Shown here: positions 42,961 to 62,631 of the stretch, in pieces
Numbering within the stretch: position 1 is the stretch's first letter
How the letters are laid out: each line of letters opens with the position of its first letter
NCBI RefSeq assembly: GCF_029952445.1
Contig: NZ_JAQPPK010000008.1
Span: 62,001-126,000 of the forward strand
DNA length: 64,000 nt
From: Paenarthrobacter nitroguajacolicus
GTDB lineage: Bacteria; Actinomycetota; Actinomycetes; Actinomycetales; Micrococcaceae
Direction of reading: 5' to 3'
The notes under the pieces: generated by a model
Databases searched by the model: none
What the model saw: the letters and a program-made list of their open reading frames with translations, nothing else
Told to the model about the DNA's origin: nothing
Translations under genes and position numbers: made by a program

Positions 42961-43838
42961 TTATGCGCTGGCGGCCACCTCCGGCAAGCAGGAACGCTGG
43001 GCCACCACCCGCTCCCTTCCGGCATAGACATTCAAGCTGGATCCGCGGCTGAAGCCCACCAGGGTCAGGCCCGTTCCGGCGGCGAGGTCTACAGCCAGGC
43101 TCGAGGGAGCGCTGACCGCTGACAATACGGGGATCCCGGCCAAGGCGGCCTTCTGGATAAGTTCGAACGATGCCCTGCCCGAGACCTGCAGGACCAGGCC
43201 CGTCAATGGCATCAGGTCCTGTCGGAGCGCCCAACCCACCACCTTGTCCACGGCGTTGTGGCGGCCGACGTCCTCACGCAGGCACAGGAGTTCCGGTTCG
43301 GAACCATCCACCCTGAAGAGCCCGGCAGCGTGCACGCCGCCTGTCCTGTCGAGACGGCCTGGGCTTCGCGAAGGCGTTCCGGCAGCCCGGCCAGGAGATC
43401 GACGGGCACCTGCAAACGATCCAGGGACACGTCGTAGTGGATCGTCTTGCGCACGGCGTCTATGGAATCCGTGCCGCAGATCCCGCATGAGCTGGATGTG
43501 TAGACGTGGCGCTTGGTGTCCGGCAGGGGGACATCCGGACGCAGTTGGGCATCTACCACGTTGAAGGTATTCGTCCCGTCCTTTTCCCCGGCGCAGAACC
43601 GCAGGGAGATCAGCTCCGACTGGTTGCGGATGATGCCTTCGGACACCAGGAATCCCGCAACGAGGTCGAAGTCATCTCCAGGTGTCCGCATGGTCACCGC
43701 AAAGGATGTGCCTGCAATCCTGATTTCCAACGGTTCCTCGGCAGCCAGGACGTCTTCCTTGAACCGCACGCTATGTTCGGAGCCCGTCCCGTCCAAGGCG
43801 AAGCGGTGGATCTTCCGGCGCTGGGTCATCCGTGCCAT
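42961..43838 (-). pseudogene. fdhD: fdhD, formate dehydrogenase sulfurtransferase, frameshifted
   Basis: The N-terminal part reads from MARMTQRRKIHRFALDGTGS through [20 protein letters not shown] (the active Cys pair) to [11 protein letters not shown] in one frame. The remaining part, [15 protein letters not shown], then [17 protein letters not shown] and [20 protein letters not shown], is in another frame. The junction reads GTCTCGACAGG on the coding strand where the family sequence (AVFDRTGG) would need GTCTTCGACAGG, so one T is missing near 43352. FdhD transfers sulfur to the molybdenum cofactor of formate dehydrogenases. Either the gene is broken or the base is a sequencing error. Its start overlaps moeA. 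Confidence 0.85.
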
Positions 43839-45100
43839 GGGAGCCGCCTTCCGTCCGGAATCGTGGAACTGACAGGCGAAGTCCAAGGCAGGGGCAGGAC
43901 GGGCACCGGCTCGCCCGCTGCCGCGCCTTCCGGCGGGACGGCCATATAGCCATCGGCCCAGGCCAGTCCGCGCATCATTCCGGGACCCGTGTGGGAGGCA
44001 GGGAACACCAGCCCATGGACAACGCTGCAGGGTACAAGGCGCGTTTTTCCCGGGGTGGGTTCCAGGTCTGCCCCGGAGAGTACGGGTGTGGGTTCCTGCG
44101 GCGTCCGGTTTCCGAGCGCGGCCAGCAGCGGCTCGCCCAGGGTCATGAGGGCAAGCATCGCGGCGAGGGGATTTCCCGGCAACCCGATGATGAAGTGGCC
44201 GTCGGGAAGGGCGGCCAGCACGGCAGGATGACCGGGGCGCATAGCCACCCCGTCCAGCAGGAGCCGCCCGCCGAGCGCCACCACGGCGGCGCGGAAATGG
44301 TCGGTTCCGGACTTCCCGGTTCCCCCGGTGGTAATCGTCACCTCGGGTCGCCGACCCTCGCCGTCGCCGTCCAACGCCGTCAGCCACTCCTGGTACGAGT
44401 CGCCGATTCGCAGCTGCCCTGTGGGCACCCCTCCCAACTGCGGGATGACGGCGTCGAGCTGCGGACCGAAAGCGTCCCGCACCTGGCCCGGCGCGGGCTC
44501 ACCTGAGGTGACCACTTCGGAGCCGGTCATCACGACGGCGACCCTCGGCTTGCGTTGGACGTGCAGCTGATCGTGGCCGGCCACCGCGGCGAGGGCAAGG
44601 TGTGCCGGATTGATCAGTGTCCCGGCGGGAATGAGGATATCGCCGGCCGTGGCTTCTTCACCGGCCGGACGGATGTGACGGCCAGGAAGTGTCTCACCCG
44701 GTTTCGCATCGCTTCTGAGCGAGAGGCACCCAGCCCCGGACACGGATCCACTTTCCTTGCGGAGCACGCTGGTGGCTCCAGCCGGAATCAGGCCGCCTGT
44801 GGCGATGACACTGGCTTCACCGGCGTAAAGACGGCGCCCTGCCACGGTGAGGTTCCAAGGACCTTCTCCATTGATGGCCCAGCCGTCCATGGCCGATGAC
44901 GCGTAGTGGGGAAGGTCCTGCCGGGCCGCGACATCGTGGTCCAGGATGCAGCCGATTGCCTGGTCCAGGCTGGTAGCCACCGACGAAAGTGGCGCGGCGC
45001 AGCGGAAGGCCAGCTGCCGCGCTTCGGCCCACGTGGGGGCATGGTTCCGCTGGAGTGTGCCCGTTTTCTCCTCGTGCGTTATCTCATCTTGTGCAAGCAT
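43826..45100 (-). CDS. moeA: Molybdopterin molybdenumtransferase MoeA
   Basis: The 424-residue protein has the MoeA pattern: QDLPHYASSAMDGWAINGEG, GETLPGRHIRPAGEEATAGD, VVMTGSEVVTSGEPAPGQVR and a C-terminal domain IV. The central TTGGTGKSGTDHFRAAVVAL and GLPGNPLAAMLALMTLGEPL are the nucleotide/cofactor segments of domain III. It inserts molybdate into adenylylated molybdopterin in the cytoplasm. It lies between fdhD and the formaldehyde dehydrogenase, near a molybdopterin oxidoreductase, so the genes form a cofactor set for that enzyme. Confidence 0.9.
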   Translation of the reverse strand: MLAQDEITHEEKTGTLQRNHAPTWAEARQLAFRCAAPLSSVATSLDQAIGCILDHDVAARQDLPHYASSAMDGWAINGEGPWNLTVAGRRLYAGEASVIATGGLIPAGATSVLRKESGSVSGAGCLSLRSDAKPGETLPGRHIRPAGEEATAGDILIPAGTLINPAHLALAAVAGHDQLHVQRKPRVAVVMTGSEVVTSGEPAPGQVRDAFGPQLDAVIPQLGGVPTGQLRIGDSYQEWLTALDGDGEGRRPEVTITTGGTGKSGTDHFRAAVVALGGRLLLDGVAMRPGHPAVLAALPDGHFIIGLPGNPLAAMLALMTLGEPLLAALGNRTPQEPTPVLSGADLEPTPGKTRLVPCSVVHGLVFPASHTGPGMMRGLAWADGYMAVPPEGAAAGEPVPVLPLPWTSPVSSTIPDGRRLPWHG

Positions 45101-46618: not shown

Positions 46619-48937
46619 CTAGGCCTTTTCCAGCCGGACGATCACGGATTTCGACGTTGGCGTGCCGCTGGTGTCGGCCACGGAATCCAGCGGCACCAGG
46701 ACGTTGGTTTCGGGGTAGTACGCGGCAGCGCAACCCTTCGGCGTCGAGTAGGACACGATGCGGAAGTTCGGGGCGCGGCGGTCCACTCCCTGGAATTCGG
46801 AGATGAGATCCACCATCTCTCCGTCGGCGAAACCGAGTTCGCTGATGTCCTGGGCGTTGATGAGCACCACCCGCCGGCCACCGTGGATGCCGCGGTACCG
46901 GTCGTCCTTGCCGTAGATGGTGGTGTTGTACTGGTCGTGGGAACGCAGGGTTTGCAGGACCAACTTGCCCGGGGGGACCTTGATGTACTCCAGCTCATTG
47001 CCTGTGAAGTGTGCTTTCCCGGAGGTGGTGTCGAACTTCCTGGCATCGCGGGGCGGGTGTGGCAGCACGAAGCCGCCGGGGTGCTGGATCCGGGCTTCGA
47101 AGTCTTCAAAGCCATCAAAGACTCCTTCGATGTGCTTCCTGATCAGGGTGTAGTCGTCCCGCATGGCAAGCCAGGAGGCTTTCGGCGTGTTCGGCAGGCG
47201 GCTGTGGCCGTCGGTGAACAGCTTGTGGGCGAGGTTGCAGACGATCGCTACTTCGGAGTGGAGGTGCTCGCTTGCAGGTTTGAGCCGGCCCCGCGAGGCG
47301 TGGACGGCACTCATGGAATCTTCCACGGTGACCCGCTGGTCACCCGTCCGTTGGGTGTCCTTCTCGGTGCGTCCCAGGGTGGGCAGGATCAACGCCCGCC
47401 GGCCCGTGGACAGATGCGAGTGGTTCAGCTTGGTGGAGATCTGGACAGTCAGCCCAGCGTTGGCCAAGGCTTGCTCGGTCACCTCCGAATCAGGGGCGGC
47501 CCGGACAAAGTTGCCGCCCATCCCCATGAAGAAACGGACGTGTCCATCCCGCATGGCGCGGATGGCTGCCACGGTGTCAAAGCCGTGGTCACGGGGTGAG
47601 CGGAACTCGAATTCCTGGTCCAGGCGGTCGTGGAAGGTCTCCGGCATCTTCTCGAAAATGCCCATGGTGCGGTCACCCTGGACGTTCGAATGTCCGCGTA
47701 CGGGGCAGACACCTGCGCCGGGCTTGCCGATGTTGCCTTGGAGCAGCAGGACGTTCACCACGTCCCGGAGCGTGGGAACGGAGTGCTTGTGCTGCGTAAG
47801 GCCCATGGCCCAGCAGACGATCGTGGCATTGGAGGCCAGAAGGCGTTCACCGGTCGCGTGGAGCTGCTCCAAGGTGAGGCCGGTGGCTTCGACGATGTCG
47901 TCCCACTCCACCTTTTCCAGGAACCGGAGGTAGTCGTCGATGCCCACGGTGTGGTCATTGATGAAGGCGTGGTCCAGGACAGTATCCAGTCCAGGGGTCT
48001 TGCGGCCCGCTGCCTCGGCTTCCAGGAGGTACTTGCCCAGGCCTTGGAAGAGGGCTTGGTCGCCGCCGGCGCGGATCTGGAGGAAGTCGTCGGTCAGCTG
48101 GGTTCCCACTACCATGCCAGCCACGTGCTGGGGGTTTTCAAAGTGCAGGAGCCCGGCTTCAGGAAGGGGGTTCACGGAGACAATGACCGCGCCGTTCTTC
48201 TTGGCCTTCTCCAGCGCACTGAGCATGCGGGGGTGGTTGGTGCCCGGATTCTGCCCCGCGACGAAGATCAACGACGCCGTTTCCAGATCCGTCAGGCTTA
48301 CGGAGCCCTTGCCGATGCCGATGGTTTCCACCAGAGCGGAACCCGAGGACTCGTGGCACATGTTGGAGCAGTCCGGCAGGTTGTTCGTGCCGAGGCCGCG
48401 GACAAGGAGCTGGTACACGAAGGCGGCTTCGTTGGAGGTCCGGCCCGAGGTGTAGAACACGGCTTGGTCCGGGTTCTCCAGGTTCCGGAGTTCCCGGGCC
48501 ATGAGTTCGTAGGCGTCGTCCCACTCAATCGGGGTGTAGTGGCTGGCTCCTTCCTCAAGGACCATGGGATGGGTCAGCCGGCCCTGTTGGCCCAGCCAGT
48601 AATCGTCACGGGTCTTGAGCTCAGCCACGGAGTACTTGGCGAAGAATTCCGGCGTGACGCGTCGGCGGGTGGCTTCCTCGGCCACCGCTTTGGCGCCGTT
48701 CTCGCAGAACTCCGCGGCGTTGCGCTTTTCGTGCTCGGGCCAAGCGCAGCCCATGCAGTCGAAGCCGTCCAGCTGGTTCACGGCGAGCAGGGTCTGGACG
48801 CTGCGGACCGGACCCATTTGTTCCAGCGAAATCTTCAGGGCGTTGGCGACGGCCGGAATGCCCACGGCTTTGGTTTTCGGTTTGGTGACGGTCAGCTTCG
48901 ACTCGTCGATGTTTCCGTCGGGAGCTTTCGTAGCCAT
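46619..48937 (-). CDS. FdhF/YdeP-family molybdopterin oxidoreductase
   Basis: The 772-residue protein matches the YdeP family: DGFDCMGCAWPEHEKR near the N-terminus (ligands for one iron-sulfur cluster), the molybdopterin contacts VFYTSGRTSNEAAFVYQLLV, DCSNMCHESSG with the likely metal ligand Cys, and LLQGNIGKPGAGVCPVRGHS. The C-terminal molybdopterin-dinucleotide domain ends VPLDSVADTSGTPTSKSVIV. Members are often called formate dehydrogenases, though this is proven for few. Its place beside moeA, fdhD and two formate-producing steps supports formate oxidation here. Confidence 0.88.
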   Translation of the reverse strand: MATKAPDGNIDESKLTVTKPKTKAVGIPAVANALKISLEQMGPVRSVQTLLAVNQLDGFDCMGCAWPEHEKRNAAEFCENGAKAVAEEATRRRVTPEFFAKYSVAELKTRDDYWLGQQGRLTHPMVLEEGASHYTPIEWDDAYELMARELRNLENPDQAVFYTSGRTSNEAAFVYQLLVRGLGTNNLPDCSNMCHESSGSALVETIGIGKGSVSLTDLETASLIFVAGQNPGTNHPRMLSALEKAKKNGAVIVSVNPLPEAGLLHFENPQHVAGMVVGTQLTDDFLQIRAGGDQALFQGLGKYLLEAEAAGRKTPGLDTVLDHAFINDHTVGIDDYLRFLEKVEWDDIVEATGLTLEQLHATGERLLASNATIVCWAMGLTQHKHSVPTLRDVVNVLLLQGNIGKPGAGVCPVRGHSNVQGDRTMGIFEKMPETFHDRLDQEFEFRSPRDHGFDTVAAIRAMRDGHVRFFMGMGGNFVRAAPDSEVTEQALANAGLTVQISTKLNHSHLSTGRRALILPTLGRTEKDTQRTGDQRVTVEDSMSAVHASRGRLKPASEHLHSEVAIVCNLAHKLFTDGHSRLPNTPKASWLAMRDDYTLIRKHIEGVFDGFEDFEARIQHPGGFVLPHPPRDARKFDTTSGKAHFTGNELEYIKVPPGKLVLQTLRSHDQYNTTIYGKDDRYRGIHGGRRVVLINAQDISELGFADGEMVDLISEFQGVDRRAPNFRIVSYSTPKGCAAAYYPETNVLVPLDSVADTSGTPTSKSVIVRLEKA

Positions 48938-48948
48938 GCGGGTTCCCT

Positions 48949-49836
48949 TCAGATCCGGGCGGCGGACGCGGCGGCGGCCAGTTGGGCAGGTTCCTGCTGC
49001 CTCGCGGCCTCAACGGTGTGCAGAAGCAACAGTGCGGTGGTGACGGAGCCGACGCCGCCGGGAACCGGCGTCAACCCGGCTGCGACACCGGTGACGCTGG
49101 CTTCGTCAACGTCCCCCACCAGTGAGCCGTCGGGCAGGACGTTCGTTCCGACGTCGACCACTACGGTCTCCGGCGAGAGGTGGCTGCCTTTGAGCAGTCC
49201 GGTCCGGCCGGCGGCCACAACCACGACGTCGGCCGGTTGCGTATGGCGCTCCAGTGGCCCCGACTTGGAATGGCAGATGGTAACGGTGGCGTCCCGTTCC
49301 AGGAGCAGCAGCGCAAGCGGCTTGCCCACCACCGCGGAACGCCCGACGACGGTCACGTTCCTGCCCGCGACGGGCACGTCGAAGTGGTCCAGGAGTTCCA
49401 CCACGGCCTGCGCGGTTGCTGGAGCGAAGGCGTGCTGGCCGACAGCCAGGCGGCCCAAGCTGAGGGGATTGGCGCCGTCGATGTCTTTTTCCGGAGCGAT
49501 GAGGCCCACCAGGGAGTCAGCCTTCACGCCCACGGGCAGCGGTGTTTGCAGGATGATGCCGTTGACCGATGGTTCGGCGCTGAGGTCCCTCAGGACGCTT
49601 GCCAGCACCTGTTCGGTGGCCTCGGATCCAAGATCCACTATCCGACAACCGATTCCCAGGCGTTCAGCCGCACGTTCGATCGAACGGACGTACCAGAGCG
49701 TTGATTCGTCGTCCGTGGCCACAACCACTGCCAGGACAGGGTGGCGCCCGCTGTTCTCCAGGACGCGGGCCTCGTCCTGGGCCCTTTGCTGGATGAGGGC
49801 GGCCAGTGGCTTTCCGGAAAGCACTTGGGTGTTCAC
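48949..49836 (-). CDS. folD: FolD-type methylene-THF dehydrogenase lacking the cyclohydrolase lysine
   Basis: The 295-residue protein has FolD signatures: GIILQTPLPVGVKADSLVGL, PEKDIDGANPLSLGRLAVGQ and VTVVGRSAVVGKPLALLLLE. In bifunctional FolD the motif YxxxK carries the Lys needed for cyclohydrolase activity (Lys56 in human, Lys54 in Escherichia coli); here Tyr49-Val-Arg-Ser-Ile53 has Ile (codon ATC). The Gln and Asp of the active site remain. It should oxidise 5,10-methylene-THF but hydrolyse methenyl-THF poorly. Its start overlaps the stop of an FchA-type cyclohydrolase gene by 4 nt. Confidence 0.88.
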   Translation of the reverse strand: MNTQVLSGKPLAALIQQRAQDEARVLENSGRHPVLAVVVATDDESTLWYVRSIERAAERLGIGCRIVDLGSEATEQVLASVLRDLSAEPSVNGIILQTPLPVGVKADSLVGLIAPEKDIDGANPLSLGRLAVGQHAFAPATAQAVVELLDHFDVPVAGRNVTVVGRSAVVGKPLALLLLERDATVTICHSKSGPLERHTQPADVVVVAAGRTGLLKGSHLSPETVVVDVGTNVLPDGSLVGDVDEASVTGVAAGLTPVPGGVGSVTTALLLLHTVEAARQQEPAQLAAAASAARI

Positions 49837-50459
49837 GAGAAGATCCTTTCGCGGACGCGCTTCACCAGGGAATCGGCGGCGAGGACCACCTTGTCTTCAA
49901 GTCCGTCGGTCTGCCCGGCCAGTTCGGCGCGGGCGGCGGGGTCCTTGATGGCAACCACGTTGATATCGATGTTGACGCGGGCTGTGGTGGCAGCAGCACG
50001 GGCGGCATCTGCTGCTGCGGCCACATCGCTGATGACGTTCGGATTCGCCGCCTCCACGAGGTCGGTGGCGAGGTCCACCACCGCACCGGCAACCCCGATG
50101 AGTTGCGCGGGGGTTTGGGCAGCCTGCATCAAGGCATCCTGGATGGCGGCCTTGCGTGCGCTCTTCAGCTGGTCCGTGTCCGACGGGAGTTTGTAGGAGT
50201 CGATGACTGCCTGGAAGGCGTGCTCATCGGCGTCGGCAAGGCGCAGGGCCTCCACCACCAAATGGTCGGCGGCGCTGGTGATCCGGGCAACGAGTTCAGC
50301 GTGCTGTTCGAACTTTGCCCCGGTGGTGTACCTGGCCACCATGGCAATCAACGCGGCTCCTTGTGCCGCGTGGAGTGCCGCCGCCGCCCCGCCGCCCGGT
50401 GTGGGCTGGCGGGAGGCAAGCCTGGCGAGGTAGTCGTTGATGGTTTCTGAGCTGATCAT
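49833..50459 (-). CDS. fchA: FchA-type methenyl-THF cyclohydrolase / cyclodeaminase family
   Basis: The 208-residue, all-helical protein starts INDYLARLASRQPTPGGGAA and continues AALHAAQGAALIAMVARYT, the diagnostic Gly-rich folate-binding segment of the FTCD_C/FchA family. Members are formiminotransferase-cyclodeaminases or stand-alone methenyl-THF cyclohydrolases. It is coupled to folD by a 4-nt overlap and follows dmg by 10 nt, so it most likely converts methenyl-THF to 10-formyl-THF for PurU. No formiminotransferase domain is present. Confidence 0.85.
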   Translation of the reverse strand: MISSETINDYLARLASRQPTPGGGAAAALHAAQGAALIAMVARYTTGAKFEQHAELVARITSAADHLVVEALRLADADEHAFQAVIDSYKLPSDTDQLKSARKAAIQDALMQAAQTPAQLIGVAGAVVDLATDLVEAANPNVISDVAAAADAARAAATTARVNIDINVVAIKDPAARAELAGQTDGLEDKVVLAADSLVKRVRERIFS

Positions 50460-50469
50460 GGGTCTTGTA

Positions 50470-53929
<3,460 letters not shown>

Positions 53930-53975
53930 GTGTCCTCCTTAGGTTGTTTGCCTAGATATATTCCTGAAGTACGAA

Positions 53976-53987
53976 CTGATATATTAG
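53976..53987. promoter_or_regulatory. GntR operator candidate between purU and gntR
   Basis: CTGATATATTAG is a near-palindrome of the form CTRATATATYAG. A second, weaker copy, CTAGATATATTC, lies at 53952-53963. Both sit in the divergent promoter region, so the regulator could control purU and itself. Confidence 0.6.
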
Positions 53988-54061
53988 GATTGGAAATCAG
54001 CGTATACTGGTGTCCGGAGCAGGTCAATAGGTTTCCCGGTTTTGAAGAAGGAGTTGGCGCG

Positions 54062-54742
54062 GTGGCTACTGGAACTCTCTCAAGCATTGGCGATGCCACC
54101 AGGAAATCACTGGCTGATGTGGCGTATGAGCGGTTGCGCGACCGCTTGCTGATGCTCGAAATAAAACCGGGGGACATCCTCAACGATGACCAGCTCGCCA
54201 AGGAGTTGGAGATCGGACGCACCCCTGTCCGCGAAGCCTTGAAGCGCCTGGAGCTGGATCGCCTGGTCATTACTTATCCACGCCGCGGGACATTCGCCAC
54301 GCGGGTGGAAGTGACAGACCTGGCCTTTATCTCGGAAATCCGCGCCCAATTGGAGCCCCTTGCGGCCGCTCGTGCGGCGCGGGTCGCCTCGGCTGCCGCC
54401 AAGGATCACCTGCGGGACGTCATGCGGGCTGTTGAGCAATTCGATGTCAGCGCTGCGTCGGTGGTTGAGACCTTGCGCCTTGATGCCAGCGTTCACCAAG
54501 GCATCTATGCGGCGGCCGCGAATCCTCACCTTGAGGACGTGCTGATCCGCTACGACAACCTCGCAACGCGGATCTGGTGCATGGTGCTGGATCGCCTGCC
54601 GGATCTCGAGCACCACATCCGTGAGCACTTGGACCTGCTGCGGGCAGTCATAGACGGCAAGGAAGAGGAAGCTGCCGAGCTGGCACGCGTCCACGTCGAC
54701 GGGTTCGAGCGGGCTGTCCGCCAGGCACTCTTCGCAGCCTGA
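54062..54742 (+). CDS. GntR-family regulator (FCD/FadR subgroup)
   Basis: The GTG at 54062 is chosen because AAGGAG lies 8 nt upstream; the frame to 53930 runs across the operator sites. The 226-residue protein has a winged HTH ([20 protein letters not shown]) and an all-helical FCD ligand domain ([60 protein letters not shown]) with His residues suited to bind a metal and a small acid. It stands between purU and the pdxS-like gene and is the best candidate for the TRATATATYA sites. Confidence 0.9.
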
Positions 54743-54765: not shown

Positions 54766-54794
54766 TTGACGCGTCGACTGGTCGCTTGCATACT
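54766..54794 (+). promoter_or_regulatory. Promoter of the pdxS-like gene
   Basis: TTGACG (54766-54771) and CATACT (54789-54794) are separated by 17 bp. The start of transcription would be near 54801, directly at the GntR operator candidate. Confidence 0.6.
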
Positions 54795-54804
54795 GGTCTT
54801 CTCA

Positions 54805-54816
54805 CTAATATATCAC
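54805..54816. promoter_or_regulatory. GntR operator candidate overlapping the pdxS-like start of transcription
   Basis: CTAATATATCAC matches CTRATATATYAG at 11 of 12 positions and lies 11 bp after the -10 box, a position where a bound protein would repress. Confidence 0.6.
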
Positions 54817-54903
54817 CCGGATATCAGGCATCAGTGGCAATTGCCGGCTTTGAGTCCGGGCGCTGGTGATGGAATCACAGCCCCCAAGTACCCGGAGTAT
54901 CCC

Positions 54904-55818
54904 GTGACCAGACCACACCCTCTTTTCGAACACATTCCGCTCACGGGCAGCAGCCGCGTCAAGCGGGGCATGGCTGAGATGCTCAAGGGCGGCGTCATCA
55001 TGGACGTCGTTAACGTCGAGCAGGCCCGCATCGCCGAGGACGCCGGTGCTGTCGCCGTCATGGCCCTCGAGCGTGTCCCGGCCGACATCCGCGCCCAGGG
55101 TGGCGTGTCCCGCATGTCCGATCCCGACATGATCGAGTCGATCATCGCCGCTGTGTCCATCCCGGTGATGGCCCAGGCCCGCATCGGCCACTTCGTCGAA
55201 GCGCAGGTCCTGCAGTCCCTCGGTGTGGACTACATCGACGAGTCCAAGGTCCTGACCCCGGCCGACTACGTCAACCACATCGACAAGTGGAACTTCACCG
55301 TTCCCTTCGTCTGTGGTGCCACCAACCTGGGTGAGGCGCTGCGCCGCATCAACGAGGGCGCGGCCATGATCCGTTCCAAGGGCGAGGCCGGCACCGGCGA
55401 TGTTTCCAACGCGACCGGCCACATGCGCAAGATCCGCGCCGAGATCGCCAAGCTCGCCGCCCTTCCCGAGGACGAGCTGTACGTAGCGGCCAAGGAACTG
55501 CAGGCCCCGTACGAACTCGTCAAGGAAATCGCTGCCACGGGCAAGCTCCCGGTGGTACTGTTCACCGCCGGTGGCATCGCAACCCCGGCTGATGCTGCGA
55601 TGATGATGCAGCTCGGCGCCGATGGCGTGTTCGTCGGTTCGGGTATCTTCAAATCCGGCAACCCCGCAGAGCGCGCCGCCGCCGTCGTGACCGCTAGTGC
55701 CTACTACGACGATCCCGACGTTATCGCCAAGGTCTCCCGCGGCCTGGGCGAAGCCATGGTCGGCATCAACGTCGACGAAATCCCGCAGCCCCACCGCCTC
55801 GCAGAACGGGGGTGGTAG
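54904..55818 (+). CDS. pdxS: PdxS-like PLP synthase paralogue lacking the catalytic Lys81
   Basis: The start is GTG at 54904, 6 nt after GGAG. The 304-residue TIM barrel is unmistakably Pdx[41 protein letters not shown], and [20 protein letters not shown]. Numbering is offset by 10 from Bacillus subtilis: Asp34 (Asp24), Asp112 (Asp102) and Lys159 (Lys149) are kept, but the Schiff-base Lys81 is Gln91 (codon CAG in VMAQARIGH). Glu105 of DESEVLTPAD is Lys115, and Arg of CGARNLGEA is Thr140. It should not bind ribose-5-phosphate in the normal way. No pdxT glutaminase gene follows. It is probably a regulatory subunit or a new enzyme. Confidence 0.85.
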
Positions 55819-55820
55819 CC

Positions 55821-56063
55821 ATGCTTGGACAGACAAAGCCAGGGCAGGCCAAGCCGGCCAGGACGCTGGAGGGGCGGGCCTTGCGCAAGGACTGGGCCCA
55901 ACTGACAGGACATGTGGTGGAAGTGTGGCTCAAGGGCGATCGGGTCGTGACCGGCATTGTGGAGCAGGCGGCCCCTGATGACTCCGTCCTCTGGATTGCA
56001 GCGGACGGGGCCGATCGGCGCAAGCTTTTTGACCAGTCCACCGGGTATGAGGTGTGGGCCTAG
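55821..56063 (+). CDS. Small protein downstream of the pdxS-like gene, unknown function
   Basis: The ATG at 55821 (MLGQTKPGQAKPART) begins 2 nt after the pdxS-like stop and follows GGGGGTGG; a GTG at 55812 overlapping that gene is the alternative. The 80-residue protein has a basic lead, then WAQLTGHVVEVWLKGDRVVT and GIVEQAAPDDSVLWIAADGA, a pattern of short beta-strands ending in YEVWA, like a small barrel. I do not recognise a family. Its position suggests a partner of the PdxS-like protein. Confidence 0.7.
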   Translation: MLGQTKPGQAKPARTLEGRALRKDWAQLTGHVVEVWLKGDRVVTGIVEQAAPDDSVLWIAADGADRRKLFDQSTGYEVWA

Positions 56064-56085: not shown

Positions 56086-57018
56086 TCAGGCCTCGTCCTC
56101 GGGGCGGGTTGCAAGGATCCGCTTGGCACTGACCTGCAGGATGCCAAGCGACTCCTGGATCAGGGGCGATGCGATGCTGCCCCTGCGTACGGCTGCCACT
56201 ATGCGGCGTGCCGGCTTCCCTTTGCCGGTGATACGCAACCGCACCACGTTCTCGGTGCTGTGCAGCGGCGCCAACCGCGGCAGCAAGCCCACGCCCAACC
56301 CGGCTCCAACGAACGCGATCTGGGTCTCCCACTCCACGGCCTCGTGCGCGATCCGTGGCGTCACCCCCACTGCAGTGAAGGCCGCCGTGAACAGGGAGTG
56401 GTAGGTGGACCCCGCCGCTTCGGTGATCCAGGGTTCGGAGGCCAGTTCTTCAAGCGTCACAGTCTCCCGCGTGGCCAGTCGATGGTCGGCGGGAATGATG
56501 ACGTCCAGGGGGTCGTCGAGCAGGACGGTCTGTTCGAAGCGGGGATCGTCTTCTCCGTACGTGTCGGACTGCATGGCAACAATGACGGCAAGGTCGATGC
56601 GTTCCGCCACCAGCAGGTCGAAGCAGCGGGAGGGATTTGCTTCCAGGACCTGAACCTCCAAGAGGGGCCGGGTGGACCGCAGCGTGGCGGCGAGCGGCGC
56701 GAGCAACTGTGCGGCCGCCGTCGAAAATCCACCGAGGCCAAAATGCGATTGCACCTGGTCGCCGGCCTCCATGGCCGCAGCCCGCAGGCTTTCCCATTCG
56801 GCGATCAGCTTGTCCGAACCGGCCACGAGGAAGCGTCCCGTGGCCGTCAGCCGGACGCCCCGGCCGTCCTTTGTCAGCAGCTGCATTCCCAGTACCCGCT
56901 GGAGTTCGCGCAGCTGTGCGGAGACGGCGGAGGGGGAATAACCAGTGAGTTCGGCCGTCGCCCCCACGGTGCCGCATCTGGCGAACACCCGGAGCGTTAT
57001 GAGCCTCTGATCGATCAT
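56086..57018 (-). CDS. LysR-family regulator, divergent from the betaine monooxygenase genes
   Basis: The ATG at 57018 (MIDQRLITLRVFARCG) is the likely start; 57033 is an alternative. The 310-residue protein has the LysR HTH (GTVGATAELTGYSPSAVSAQ) and a substrate-binding domain (LLEVQVLEANPSRCFDLLVA; AFVGAGLGVGLLPRLAPLHS). It is divergent from gbcA and probably activates it in response to betaine or a demethylation product. Confidence 0.87.
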   Translation of the reverse strand: MIDQRLITLRVFARCGTVGATAELTGYSPSAVSAQLRELQRVLGMQLLTKDGRGVRLTATGRFLVAGSDKLIAEWESLRAAAMEAGDQVQSHFGLGGFSTAAAQLLAPLAATLRSTRPLLEVQVLEANPSRCFDLLVAERIDLAVIVAMQSDTYGEDDPRFEQTVLLDDPLDVIIPADHRLATRETVTLEELASEPWITEAAGSTYHSLFTAAFTAVGVTPRIAHEAVEWETQIAFVGAGLGVGLLPRLAPLHSTENVVRLRITGKGKPARRIVAAVRRGSIASPLIQESLGILQVSAKRILATRPEDEA

Positions 57019-57035
57019 GGAACCATCATGCACCT

Positions 57036-57066: not shown

Positions 57067-57188
57067 TTTTGTTGCAGTTCAATCGTCCCTAATCTCTAAC
57101 TACGAAGACTTCGATAACCCCGCCTGCGATGATGCATCCGCGGACCCCAATGAATCGCATACTTACCCAGCCTCCCGGGAGGAAACCC

Positions 57189-58493
57189 ATGACTGCTCAA
57201 GTGAACGTGCCCCTCAATTCACGCGGAAAACTCGCCTCGACTCTGCCTGCTGAGCAGCTGGCGGAAATCAGCGGGCTGTTTGAGTTCCGGCGCACCGGAT
57301 ACTCCCTCGACGCTCCCTTCTACACCGACCCCACGATCTTCAAGCTGGACATGGAAGCCATTTTCGGCCAGCACTGGATCTATGCCGGTAGCGTCGCCGA
57401 GCTGCCCGAGCCGGGCGACTACATCACGGTGGACTACGGCCCCTACTCCCTGATCGTGTTGCGCAACGACGACGGCGGCGTCAACGTGCTGCACAACGTG
57501 TGCCGCCACCGCGGTGCCCGGGTCCTCACTGAGTCCACCGGTTCCACCGGCAACCTCGTGTGCGGCTACCACTCCTGGACCTACTCGCCCGAGGGCAACC
57601 TGATCCACGCTTCGGCACCGGGTGAGGCCAAGTTCGACAAGAACTGCTTCGCCCTCAAGCGTGCCCACAGCCGCGAGGTTGCCGGACTCATTTTCGTCTG
57701 CATCGCCGAGGAACCGCCCACCGATTTTGATGAGACTTCCAAGATCTTCGAGCCCTACCTGGCACCCCACGATCTGTCCAAGACGAAGATTGCCTACCAG
57801 CAGAACATCATCGAAGAGGGCAACTGGAAGCTCGTCATGGAGAACAACCGTGAGTGCTACCACTGCGATGGCCACCCGGAGCTCGCATGCTCGCTGTTCC
57901 CCACGTGGGGCCTGACCGAGGGACTGATCCCGGCCCACCTCGAAGAGGTGTGGGACCGTAACAAGGAAGCACAGTCCTCCCTCGAGGAGCGTTGCCGCCG
58001 CTACGGACTGCCCTATGAGGTAGTTGAGGAACTCGATACCCGGATTGCCGGTATCCGTATCTCCCGCGAATCCCTGGACGGGGAGGGCGAATCCTTCTCA
58101 GCCGACGGACGCAGGCTCTCCAAGAAGCTCCTGGGCGACCTCCGGGACTTCCGCCTCGGCCGTTGCTCCATGCACTTGCAGCCGAACAGCTGGTTCCACT
58201 TCCTTGGAGACCACGTCATCACTTTCGGCGTCTTCCCCATCAACGAACACCAGTCACTGGTCCGCACCACCTGGCTGGTGGCCGACGACGCCGTGGAAGG
58301 TGTCGATTACGATCTCGACAAACTCACATACACCTGGAAGCAGACAAACCTGCAGGACAAGGCGTTCGTTGAGCTGTGCCAGACCGGTGCTGGCAGCCCT
58401 GCCTACGAACCCGGCCCGTACATGAAGAGCGAGTACCAGGTGGAGGCCTTCATCAACTGGTACGTACAGCGCGTCCAGGAGCACTTGGCATGA
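57189..58493 (+). CDS. gbcA: Glycine betaine monooxygenase, Rieske oxygenase subunit
   Basis: The ATG follows GGGAGGAAACCC. The 434-residue protein has a Rieske cluster: Cys105-x-His107 (NVCRHRGARV) and Cys125-x2-His128 (LVCGYHSWTY), 17 residues apart. The catalytic-domain iron site is in NNRECYHCDGHPEL (His225, His229). The overall pattern, DAPFYTDPTIFKLDMEAIFG at the start and FINWYVQRVQEHLA at the end, is that of GbcA and related quaternary-amine demethylases. It removes one methyl group as formaldehyde, making dimethylglycine. It overlaps the reductase gene by 4 nt. Confidence 0.9.
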   Translation: MTAQVNVPLNSRGKLASTLPAEQLAEISGLFEFRRTGYSLDAPFYTDPTIFKLDMEAIFGQHWIYAGSVAELPEPGDYITVDYGPYSLIVLRNDDGGVNVLHNVCRHRGARVLTESTGSTGNLVCGYHSWTYSPEGNLIHASAPGEAKFDKNCFALKRAHSREVAGLIFVCIAEEPPTDFDETSKIFEPYLAPHDLSKTKIAYQQNIIEEGNWKLVMENNRECYHCDGHPELACSLFPTWGLTEGLIPAHLEEVWDRNKEAQSSLEERCRRYGLPYEVVEELDTRIAGIRISRESLDGEGESFSADGRRLSKKLLGDLRDFRLGRCSMHLQPNSWFHFLGDHVITFGVFPINEHQSLVRTTWLVADDAVEGVDYDLDKLTYTWKQTNLQDKAFVELCQTGAGSPAYEPGPYMKSEYQVEAFINWYVQRVQEHLA

Positions 58494-59905
58494 TTGAACT
58501 CCTCACCGAAACGGCCATCCAGGAGCCCCAGCGGATCCGGGGTCTTGAGATGCCGTGGAACCGGGTCATGGGCAGCAGCGAGGCACCCGCCCGCGCTGCC
58601 CGTGCACTGGGTCCCTGGCATCCGCAGGAGTTCATGGCCGAATGCGTGGAAACCGTTCCGGAAGCGGGCGGCCTCATGACGTTCGTCTTCCGGCGGTCCG
58701 ACGGCGCCCCCCTTGCCTTCCGCGCGGGGCAGTACGTCAACATCGCCTTCCCGGTGAACGGCGAAGACCAGGACCCGGTGGACCGCAGCTACTCACTGTC
58801 CAGCTCGCCCACCGAGCCGTGGACCTTCAGCATCAGCGTCAAACGCGATGCAGGCGGCCTCGTTTCGCCGTGGGTCCACGAGAACGTCAAGCCCGGGACT
58901 GTGCTGGAAATGCTTGGACCGGTGGGTGCGTTCCACCTGCCTGACGCCGACCGGCGCGCAAGGTATCTCCTGCTCGCGGCCGGCGCCGGCATCACTCCCA
59001 TCATGTCGATGGTGCGCACCATCCACTCCCTGCCGGGCCATGCCGATGTTGTGGTGCTGTACCACGGAGCAGAGGCGGGGGGCTTTGCCTTCCACCGGGA
59101 GCTGGCCTACATCGCCTCCGTGGACTCGCGCGTCAAGGTCTTCTATTCCTTGGGTGACCGCAGCAAACCCGAGGGCTGGGAAGGCCTCAGTGGAAGGCTG
59201 ACGGCGGCCATGCTCGAAGAGGTCGCCCCCGACGCCAACGGCAGGCAGGTCTACGCGTGCGGCCCCGAGGGTTACCTGAACACGGCCACCGAACTCCTGA
59301 AGAAGGTGGGCGTCGACGATACCTCCATCTACATGGAGTTCTTCACCGGTGACCGCCAGACGCTCCTCGAATACCAGGCGGAACTGGCACTCGCCGCGGA
59401 CATTGCGGAGGAGATCGCGGAAGAAATCGCCGATTCCGCCGAGGACTACTACGAGAGCCAGCCCGCGGCGTTCGGGCTCTACGAGCCAGGCTATGACGCT
59501 GACGGGACGTTGGAGGCCACGGGACTTCCGCTGGAAACTTCCGAACCGGACGCGTCGGGTTCGGAAGCGTCCGACGGCGGCCCAACAGCAGGCGCGGAGG
59601 CTTCAACTCCCGATGCCTCGAGCTTTGAGACCGTTGGAACGGGAAGCCTCACCCTGTCCTTCCTGCGAACCGGCGTCAACGTCCGGATCGACCCCGACGA
59701 ACACATCCTCGGTGTGGCCCAGCGCGCGGGCGTCAGGATCGGCGCCAACTGCAAGGAGGGCATGTGCGGCTCCTGCAAGGTGGTCAAGCTTTCCGGTGAA
59801 GTGGACATGAACCACCAAGGCGGAATCCGCGCACGGGAAATCGATGCCGGCAAGTTCCTGCCCTGCTGCTCGACGGCCCGAACCGACATGGTGATCGACG
59901 CTTAG
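58490..59905 (+). CDS. gbcB: Glycine betaine monooxygenase reductase subunit
   Basis: The ATG at 58490 overlaps the gbcA stop in an ATGA. The 471-residue protein has an FNR-type flavin domain (VDRSYSLSSSPTEPWTFSIS), an NAD(P)H domain (LLLAAGAGITPIMSMVRTIH; YACGPEGYLNTATELLKKVG) and a C-terminal plant-type ferredoxin with Cys421-x4-Cys426-x2-Cys429-x29-Cys459. Between the reductase and ferredoxin lies a long acidic, Ser/Ala-rich linker of about 90 residues (EEIAEEIADSAEDYYESQPA onward), longer than usual. It passes electrons to GbcA. Confidence 0.88.
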   Translation: MIELLTETAIQEPQRIRGLEMPWNRVMGSSEAPARAARALGPWHPQEFMAECVETVPEAGGLMTFVFRRSDGAPLAFRAGQYVNIAFPVNGEDQDPVDRSYSLSSSPTEPWTFSISVKRDAGGLVSPWVHENVKPGTVLEMLGPVGAFHLPDADRRARYLLLAAGAGITPIMSMVRTIHSLPGHADVVVLYHGAEAGGFAFHRELAYIASVDSRVKVFYSLGDRSKPEGWEGLSGRLTAAMLEEVAPDANGRQVYACGPEGYLNTATELLKKVGVDDTSIYMEFFTGDRQTLLEYQAELALAADIAEEIAEEIADSAEDYYESQPAAFGLYEPGYDADGTLEATGLPLETSEPDASGSEASDGGPTAGAEASTPDASSFETVGTGSLTLSFLRTGVNVRIDPDEHILGVAQRAGVRIGANCKEGMCGSCKVVKLSGEVDMNHQGGIRAREIDAGKFLPCCSTARTDMVIDA

Positions 59906-61358: not shown

Positions 61359-61949
61359 GTGAACGTCATCGAAGAAACAGCGACGACCACCATTGACGGC
61401 GTAGCCGGCAACGCCGCCCTGATCCTCGGCGAGCTGACCGGCGTCGTCTCCGGCTTGGACTACGGACAGCTTTCCCGCTTCGCCCACTCGGTTGGTGCAG
61501 CCGAACGCGTCTTTCTGGCTGGTGCCGGCCGGAGCGGACTGGTGCTCCGCATGGCTGCGATGCGCCTGATGCATTTGGGCTTGACGGTCCACGTGGCCGG
61601 CGACACCACCACACCGGCCATCACCGACGGCGACTTGCTGGTGGTGGCGTCCGGCTCTGGCACCACATCCGGAGTGGTCAAAGCAGCTCAAACCGCCCTC
61701 GCGGCGGGAGCCCGGGTTGCTGCCATCACCACCGACCCTTCATCGCAAGTTGCAGGGCTCGCAGACACACTTGTGGTCATTCCGGCAGCACAAAAGACCG
61801 ACCACGGCTCCGGCCTCTCCCGGCAATACTCCGGCAGCCTCTTTGAACAAGCCTTGTTCGTGGTGACCGAGTCGGTCTTCCACACCTTGTGGGAAGCCAC
61901 TGCCGAGCCCGCCGAAAAGCTCTGGCTGCGTCACGCGAACCTCGAATAG
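61359..61949 (+). CDS. hxlB: 6-phospho-3-hexuloisomerase (PHI)
   Basis: The GTG at 61359 follows AAAGGAG by 6 nt. The 196-residue SIS-domain protein has VFLAGAGRSGLVLRMAAMRL, LLVVASGSGTTSGVVKAAQT and SGSLFEQALFVVTESVFHTL, the PHI pattern with the catalytic Glu and His. It isomerises hexulose-6-phosphate to fructose-6-phosphate in the ribulose monophosphate pathway. The HPS gene lies 58 bp downstream. Confidence 0.9.
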   Translation: MNVIEETATTTIDGVAGNAALILGELTGVVSGLDYGQLSRFAHSVGAAERVFLAGAGRSGLVLRMAAMRLMHLGLTVHVAGDTTTPAITDGDLLVVASGSGTTSGVVKAAQTALAAGARVAAITTDPSSQVAGLADTLVVIPAAQKTDHGSGLSRQYSGSLFEQALFVVTESVFHTLWEATAEPAEKLWLRHANLE

Positions 61950-62007: not shown

Positions 62008-62631
62008 ATGAAACTGCAGGTTGCACTTGATCTCCTCACCATCGAAGACGCCCTGGAACTTGCCGGCAAAGTAGCCGAGCACGTGGACATCATCGAGCTG
62101 GGCACCCCCCTGATCAAGGCCGAGGGCCTCTCAGCCGTAACCGCCATCAAGGAAGCCCACCCCACCAAGATCGTGTTCGCCGACATGAAGACCATGGATG
62201 CCGGTGAACTCGAAGCTGACATCGCCTTCAAGGCAGGCGCCGATTTGGTATCCGTGCTGGGAACGGCCGACGACTCCACCATCGCCGGTGCCGTCAGGGC
62301 AGCACAGTCCCACAACAAGGGCATCGTGGTGGATCTGATCGGCGTTGCAGACAAGGTCTCCCGTGCCAAGGAAGCCAGGTCCCTGGGAGCCAAGTTCATC
62401 GAGTTCCACGCGGGCCTGGATGAGCAGGCCCAGCCGGGTTACGACCTGCGTGGCCTCCTCAACGCCGGAGAAGAAGCCCGCGTGCCGTTCTCAGTGGCCG
62501 GCGGCGTCAACGCCTCCACCATCGCGGCCGTGCAACTCGCCGGTGCCGACGTAGCCGTGGCCGGCAGCGCCATTTACGGCGCGGCTGATCCGGAAGTGGC
62601 CGCGAAGGAACTCAAGGCAGCCATCCAGTAA
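62008..62631 (+). CDS. hxlA: 3-hexulose-6-phosphate synthase (HPS)
   Basis: The 207-residue TIM barrel of the OMP-decarboxylase superfamily has MKLQVALDLLTIEDALELAG, VDIIELGTPLIKAEG, KIVFADMKTMDAGELEADIA and FHAGLDEQAQPG, all typical of HPS. It condenses formaldehyde with ribulose-5-phosphate. With PHI it fixes or detoxifies formaldehyde from betaine demethylation. Confidence 0.92.
   Translation: MKLQVALDLLTIEDALELAGKVAEHVDIIELGTPLIKAEGLSAVTAIKEAHPTKIVFADMKTMDAGELEADIAFKAGADLVSVLGTADDSTIAGAVRAAQSHNKGIVVDLIGVADKVSRAKEARSLGAKFIEFHAGLDEQAQPGYDLRGLLNAGEEARVPFSVAGGVNASTIAAVQLAGADVAVAGSAIYGAADPEVAAKELKAAIQ

Follow-up and report, generated by a model that had tools for sequence, protein, structure and literature searches.

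The PdxS (Pdx1) proteins of the SOR/SNZ family are PLP synthase subunits whose chemistry involves two sites; in the enzyme as known, Lys81 of the P1 site binds R5P and Lys149 of the P2 site binds PLP (PMC3024981). Between K81 and K149 lies E105, for which a role as a steric gate has been proposed; E105D slows the formation of PLP, and E105A forms the chromophore without making PLP and is impaired in glutaminase activation, which was taken to reflect a change in folding (PMC3024981). The PLP product leaves K149 only in the presence of a PLP enzyme (PMC3024981), and the equivalents of the catalytic lysines in Arabidopsis are K98 and K166 (PMC8313854). Variations on this scheme are also described within the family. 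For example, Arabidopsis PDX1.2, a PdxS homologue without active-site residues that exists beside active paralogues (PMC6829848), interacts with its PDX1 relatives and has been assigned a positive regulatory role (PMC6071262, PMC6829848). Additionally, the yeast paralogues SNZ2/3 act in thiamine synthesis, and Snz3 functions with ammonia (PMC6385983).

Here we examine PdxS2, a PdxS paralogue encoded in the window, by which we mean the whole 64,000-nucleotide stretch of Paenarthrobacter nitroguajacolicus DNA that was analysed (Table 1). We consider it probable that pdxS2 encodes a spare, pathway-linked PLP synthase subunit that was recently disabled at its first catalytic site, with decay of a dispensable copy as the most likely course of events. 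The protein matches two PdxS models of NCBIfam over its full length and above cut-off (TIGR00343, E 1.9e-142, and NF003215), its reading frame contains neither a frameshift nor a premature stop, and a GGAG (54894-54897) ends 6 bases 5' of the GTG start. When PdxS2 is aligned to solved PdxS structures, Gln91 and Lys115 fall at Bacillus positions 81 and 105, and of the nine functional positions mapped (Bs D24, K81, D102, E105, H115, R137, R138, K149 and K187; numbered by offset, with K81, E105, K149, H115, R137, R138 and K187 named in PMC3024981) these two alone are altered. The other seven, namely D24, D102, Lys149 and the P2 residues H115, R137, R138 and K187, are kept. A first-pass annotation, made by a model from the sequence alone, had described the gene as a clear PdxS with Gln in place of Lys81 and Lys in place of Glu105, and with the equivalents of Asp24, Asp102 and Lys149 retained, all of which the residue mapping bears out. 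It had also listed an Arg-to-Thr change; Thr140 is indeed present, but the same Thr is found in the genome's normal PdxS and in the closest solved PdxS, and the position is not that of a P2 arginine, so this residue is rejected as a distinguishing change.

What would these two replacements do to the enzyme? PdxS2 has neither the lysine that forms the Schiff base with ribose/ribulose 5-phosphate nor the glutamate that stands between the two lysines. Gln81 should prevent the first covalent step, and Lys105 should interfere with transfer. A different possibility is that Lys105 replaces Lys81, such that PLP is still made or a new aldolase-type reaction is catalysed. One lysine has been lost and one gained on the same relay, with position 105 located between K81 and K149 (PMC3024981), and D24, D102, K149 and the P2 residues are intact. 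Against this, Glu105 itself matters, as illustrated by the failure of E105A, possibly a misfolded protein, to make PLP (PMC3024981); the arrangement is found in no relative examined; and two changes would be needed, with no intermediate state seen. We therefore regard a relocated lysine as highly improbable, and the new aldolase suggested in the first-pass annotation finds no positive evidence.

The genome encodes two PdxS proteins and one PdxT, and the second PdxS, PdxS1, is a normal one with Lys81 and Glu105 that is 97% identical to PdxS2 over 292 residues. Homology supports the earlier view that PdxS2 probably lies off the known PLP route in a genome that has a normal paralogue. As had also been stated, no pdxT follows pdxS2; the normal pdxS1, however, is likewise not adjacent to pdxT. 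PdxS2 accordingly resembles PdxS/Pdx1 as a whole-length homologue, and differs from it in the replacement of Lys81 and Glu105 and in having no adjacent pdxT. Since the P2 site and Lys149 are intact and the identity to PdxS1 is so high, folding, PdxT binding and the formation of mixed PdxS1/PdxS2 dodecamers are likely. PdxS2 is probably still expressed. If it is a decaying copy, its effects would be passive at most, through dead subunits in mixed dodecamers, PdxT binding and PLP at the P2/Lys149 site. A PdxS is found in 199 of 204 genomes of the genus (E 1e-60), with at least two PdxS matches in 70 of the 204, a hand count that may include fragments. In the sampled phylum, PdxS is present in 93 of 100 genomes, and outside the genus two matches occur only in three genomes (G325, G337 and G340), in which the second is a fragment or a weak match.

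Table 1. Features of the pdxS2 locus and of the same genome's other PLP synthase genes. Positions are those of the window, except where a contig (C1) is given.
Feature	Position	Strand	Remarks
FdhF/YdeP family oxidoreductase	46619..48937	-	NCBIfam
FolD-like methylene-THF dehydrogenase/cyclohydrolase	48949..49836	-	Under NCBIfam cut-offs
FchA-like methenyl-THF cyclohydrolase	49833..50459	-	Under NCBIfam cut-off
FAD oxidoreductase plus GcvT-type protein, read as dimethylglycine/sarcosine dehydrogenase	50470..53118	-	Below equivalog cut-offs; name suggested by domains and context
PurU, formyltetrahydrofolate deformylase	53012..53929	-	Profile match
GntR/FCD regulator	53930..54742	+	Directly upstream of pdxS2; true start uncertain
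Promoter-like TTGACG-17-CATACT	54766..54794	+	TTGAC and GCATACT invariant in 10/10 aligned loci
TAATATATCACCCGGATATCA, direct repeat of ATATCA (ATATCA-N5-ATATCA)	54806..54826	+	Candidate operator; nearly invariant in 10/10 aligned loci
pdxS2, PdxS paralogue, 304 aa, GTG start	54904..55818	+	ORF, NCBIfam; start region kept in relatives
pdxS2 codon 91, CAG (Gln), Bacillus Lys81 position	55174..55176	+	AAG in pdxS1; AAG or AAA in relatives' copies
pdxS2 codon 115, AAG (Lys), Bacillus Glu105 position	55246..55248	+	GAG in pdxS1 and relatives' copies
Small protein, 80 aa, operon partner	55821..56063	+	Predicted Sm/SH3-like barrel; no credible Pfam/NCBIfam match
LysR regulator	56086..57033	-	Profile match
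GbcA-like glycine betaine monooxygenase oxygenase subunit	57129..58493	+	Under equivalog cut-off
GbcB-like reductase subunit	58448..59905	+	Under equivalog cut-off
HxlB, 6-phospho-3-hexuloisomerase (formaldehyde assimilation)	61359..61949	+	Profile match
HxlA, 3-hexulose-6-phosphate synthase	62008..62631	+	Profile match
pdxS1 (normal)	C1:156206-157081		Same genome
pdxT match	C1:149902-150531		Same genome

The surroundings of pdxS2 are those of a glycine-betaine catabolic island (39769-62631), in which a BCCT transporter, a glutathione-independent formaldehyde dehydrogenase and the RuMP enzymes HxlA and HxlB are encoded as well; a LuxR-type HTH protein is encoded between the GbcB-like subunit and HxlB. 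Two ORFs at 43212-45100 look FdhD- and MoeA-like by eye and have no NCBIfam match at E 1e-60. We compared 20 loci of 20 kb, 14 of them (L080-L093) around pdxS2 or the small protein and 6 around the source genome's own pdxS1 or further pdxS copies; relatives were chosen by closeness and not at random. In 7 of the 14 (L080-L085 and L088), pdxS2 and the small protein are both present and the gene order is complete from FdhF through GbcB, and in L092 the order is kept with pdxS2 deleted. LysR-GbcA-GbcB is absent from L086 and L087, the former also being without the small protein; L089-L091 have a different arrangement, and in L093 the small protein is present but pdxS is not. Among the six other loci, L098 proved to be part of this island too, though nothing there matches the small protein, and of the island the remaining five show only weak GntR matches. 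Serine hydroxymethyltransferase and sarcosine oxidase subunits are encoded near pdxS2 in L089 and L091, in the latter of which L-serine ammonia-lyase adjoins pdxS2. In Arthrobacter sp. StoSoilB13, whose record StoSoilB13-2 has no annotated genes in this stretch, tblastn located a pdxS2 with K91/E115 together with the small protein and the majority of the neighbours. In other words, the glycine-betaine, glycine and one-carbon setting proposed in the first-pass annotation holds and is kept in a number of relatives.

Part of the genus, then, keeps pdxS2, usually with its small Sm/SH3-like partner, among genes of glycine-betaine, sarcosine, glycine and serine catabolism; the ancestral pdxS2 is a second PdxS with a kept place among the genes of one pathway. 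We hypothesize that this ancestral gene provided extra PLP, for example for serine hydroxymethyltransferase, while the betaine, glycine and serine pathways were running, and the missing pdxT beside pdxS2 could reflect ammonia from glycine and serine breakdown. The pathway-tied SNZ2/3 paralogues are the best model for the intact pdxS2 of relatives; the likeness does not extend to the source copy, as Snz3 is active and this copy is without Lys81.

As annotated at first pass, the 80-residue protein begins 2 nt after the pdxS2 stop. Pfam and NCBIfam searches gave no credible family for it, and a PDB sequence search gave nothing credible. An AlphaFold2 model (mean pLDDT 86) predicts a short helix and five strands, and the nearest solved folds are Hfq-like proteins, RimP and other Sm/SH3-like barrels, with modest scores: the best hit, the M. 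jannaschii Hfq-like protein 2qtx, has a VIA Z of 6.8 with an rmsd of 2.1 over 54 residues, where a Z below 8 may mean a mere common arrangement, and the best Foldseek E is 0.089. The predicted fold may be that of the Sm-like/Hfq and SH3-like small barrels, but no sequence relation to Sm-like/Hfq proteins was found. Hfq itself (PF17209) has no match in the source genome. The small protein belongs to a family of small, putatively Sm/SH3-like proteins (55821-56063; loci L004-L033 and L120-L136) that are encoded also on plasmids. Homologues were found in 179 of the 198 genomes searched in the genus, with a maximum of 11 matches per genome, in 37 of the 120 sampled from the family, and on 17 plasmid records from Arthrobacter, Paenarthrobacter and Pseudarthrobacter.

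How closely is this protein tied to pdxS2? At the 29 best small-protein loci outside the source genome, examined with about 1.5 kb on each side, pdxS lies directly upstream in 21 (whole, contig-cut or broken); the others have a short remnant (L023), an internally deleted pdxS (L008), a contig end (L015) or, in five cases, no pdxS. In genome G179, about 0.8 kb of pdxS2 is deleted and the small protein is open, which means that it must have a function at least partly independent of pdxS2. As a marker of the Gln form, the small protein was rejected, since it adjoins a Lys81 PdxS2 in relatives and occurs also without pdxS.

Upstream of pdxS2, the sequence TAATATATCAyyCGkATAT is invariant or nearly so at all ten aligned loci, and the direct repeat there is a candidate operator for the neighbouring GntR/FCD regulator. 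Both the promoter-like sequence and the repeat are also kept in G179, despite the loss of most of pdxS2 there.

Among the genomes examined, the Gln81/Lys105 state itself was found in this one only. The Gln codon motif was found in 1 of 206 genus genomes, the source genome, against 181 of 204 for the Lys codon motif. The E115K codon motif was found in 2 of 204, and the second match, in G028, is taken as a chance match because it lies at C1:1207149, far from that genome's PdxS at C1:3442788-3443663. Lys91 and Glu115 are kept in all 20 relatives' pdxS2 beside a small protein for which the match covers both codons, and likewise in 29 other best PdxS matches examined. In an alignment of 48 distinct PdxS segments, each 150 residues or longer, the nine functional positions are invariant except for the two in PdxS2 and for a stop that replaces codon 81 in two records. 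A Gln91/Lys115/Thr140 clade, looked for on the strength of the first-pass annotation, is therefore rejected, Thr140 being ordinary for the group.

A wider codon-motif scan covered 84,980 species and those codons at position 81 that have C, G or T as their first base. No intact PdxS in which Lys81 is substituted was among its matches; the scan is blind to Arg(AGR), Asn, Ser(AGY), Thr, Ile and Met at this codon and may omit the source genome and its near kin. Two of the 13 stretches matched are PdxS, and TAG stands at codon 81 in each of them. The two are metagenome-assembled genes (L040 and L047) in which the matches are otherwise open, and the TAG could be an error, decay or a reassigned codon. 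In the phylum sample, the Lys81 motif was found in 67 of 100 genomes as compared with 93 of 100 for PdxS, and motif scans thus miss a good part of PdxS. As far as the codon scan reaches, natural PdxS proteins that have no Lys81 seem to be very rare in bacteria. In the portions of the literature available on pdxS together with Arthrobacter, glycine betaine, sarcosine oxidase or pseudoenzymes, no report of pdxS2 was found.

Relationships among the copies were read from a tree of 39 sequences (of an intended 41, G121 and G004 'pdxS1' were left out), in which the label 'pdxS1' denotes a copy that does not adjoin the small protein. Of the 15 genomes with both copies in the tree, 12 have the two as sisters, 10 of these pairs being starred; the exceptions are the copies of G038, G114 and G195. 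The pdxS1/pdxS2 pair of the source genome has support of 97/89. Monophyly of all pdxS2 is rejected (p-AU 0.00014 (0.000137)), and a tree in which the source pdxS2 is grouped with the pdxS2 of two relatives is not (p-AU 0.315). An ancient separate descent of pdxS2 and pdxS1 is rejected by the sister pairs and the AU test; rather, the trees indicate that the two copies have been homogenised within genomes, as in concerted evolution. Gene conversion is the likely cause, as the place of pdxS2 is constant while its sequence tracks the other copy of its own genome.

Dispensability of pdxS2 is suggested by its fate in relatives. In addition to the deletion in G179, there is a remnant in G165, a one-base frameshift in G102 and a C-terminal truncation in G059 and G022. 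In G129, a C-terminal pdxS remnant precedes a diverged small-protein homologue. Some of these cases may be assembly errors.

The source copy, in turn, shows an excess of amino-acid change. Its unique changes comprise five nonsynonymous (A79S, K91Q, E115K, N263T and T265S) and two synonymous ones, a ratio of 5:2 as compared with 26:126 for 30 other rows, summed by hand (Fisher p 0.0033). A comparison with ten flanking genes, each against up to eight relatives, gives a weaker contrast that is only suggestive (6:7 vs 44:163; p 0.079). A sequencing or assembly error, or a variant of a single strain, would fit the restriction to one genome, a draft assembly of 83 contigs and a 5:2 ratio near the random-error expectation. 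We consider such an origin very unlikely: the ten flanking genes together have a normal purifying pattern and give no hint of poor sequence, the number of unique amino-acid changes in the genome's pdxS1 is 0, and three adjacent bases are altered at codons 78-79, unlike scattered errors. The first-pass annotation had itself named, as grounds for refutation, a Gln found only here as an error; the Gln is indeed found only here, and the error is what the flanking genes speak against. Codons 78-79 (55135-55140) read GAGTCG where pdxS1 and both of the nearest pdxS2 have GATCAG, and the three adjacent changes look as if they came from one multi-base event.

Decay of a dispensable copy, which we favour, also has evidence against it. 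Seven of the nine functional residues are intact, as are the start, the promoter-like sequence and the small protein, and the frame is unbroken. Additionally, two of the five unique changes fall on the K81-E105-K149 relay, which would be expected in about 1% of blind-decay draws (hypergeometric 0.002-0.015 for 5-12 functional sites), a figure that was calculated post hoc.

The same facts bear on the idea, already put forward in the first-pass annotation, of a pseudoenzyme like plant PDX1.2, in which dead subunits, built into PdxS1 dodecamers, adjust the stability or output of these to the betaine/glycine pathway. As with PDX1.2, catalytic residues have been lost while an intact paralogue is present, here one that is nearly identical; the promoter-like sequence, start, P2 site and Lys149 are retained in an unbroken frame; and both changes lie on one functional axis. 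PDX1.2, however, is restricted to eudicots and spread through them, whereas the PdxS2 change is found in one genome and in a copy nearly identical to its partner; an inactive form conserved across a clade is not seen in the genus. By bit score, PdxS2 is closer to PDX1.3 (401 bits) than to PDX1.2 (280 bits). Homogenisation of the copies would, again, tend to erase such differences, and pdxS2 is broken or deleted in several relatives. We thus think it possible but unlikely that PdxS2 acts in this way. The setting and the paralogue that the annotation had called upon are there; an evolved family is not, given the single genome, the pairing of the partner with Lys81 PdxS2 and the excess change. 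A related suggestion, also unlikely, is that only the P1 sugar chemistry is gone and that PdxS2, with P2 and Lys149 kept, is a PLP holder or regulatory subunit, early in its evolution, that assembles with PdxS1 and passes PLP to the glycine and serine enzymes of the betaine pathway.

The locus offers a natural test of a PdxS dodecamer with dead subunits beside a near-identical paralogue. Should PdxS2 prove to hold PLP or to act as a regulator, we would be looking at a pseudoenzyme of very recent origin, the steps to which can still be followed one base at a time. Wider and firmer is the pattern across the genus, where a second PLP synthase, seemingly homogenised with the first, is retained by many genomes among the genes of betaine, sarcosine and serine catabolism.
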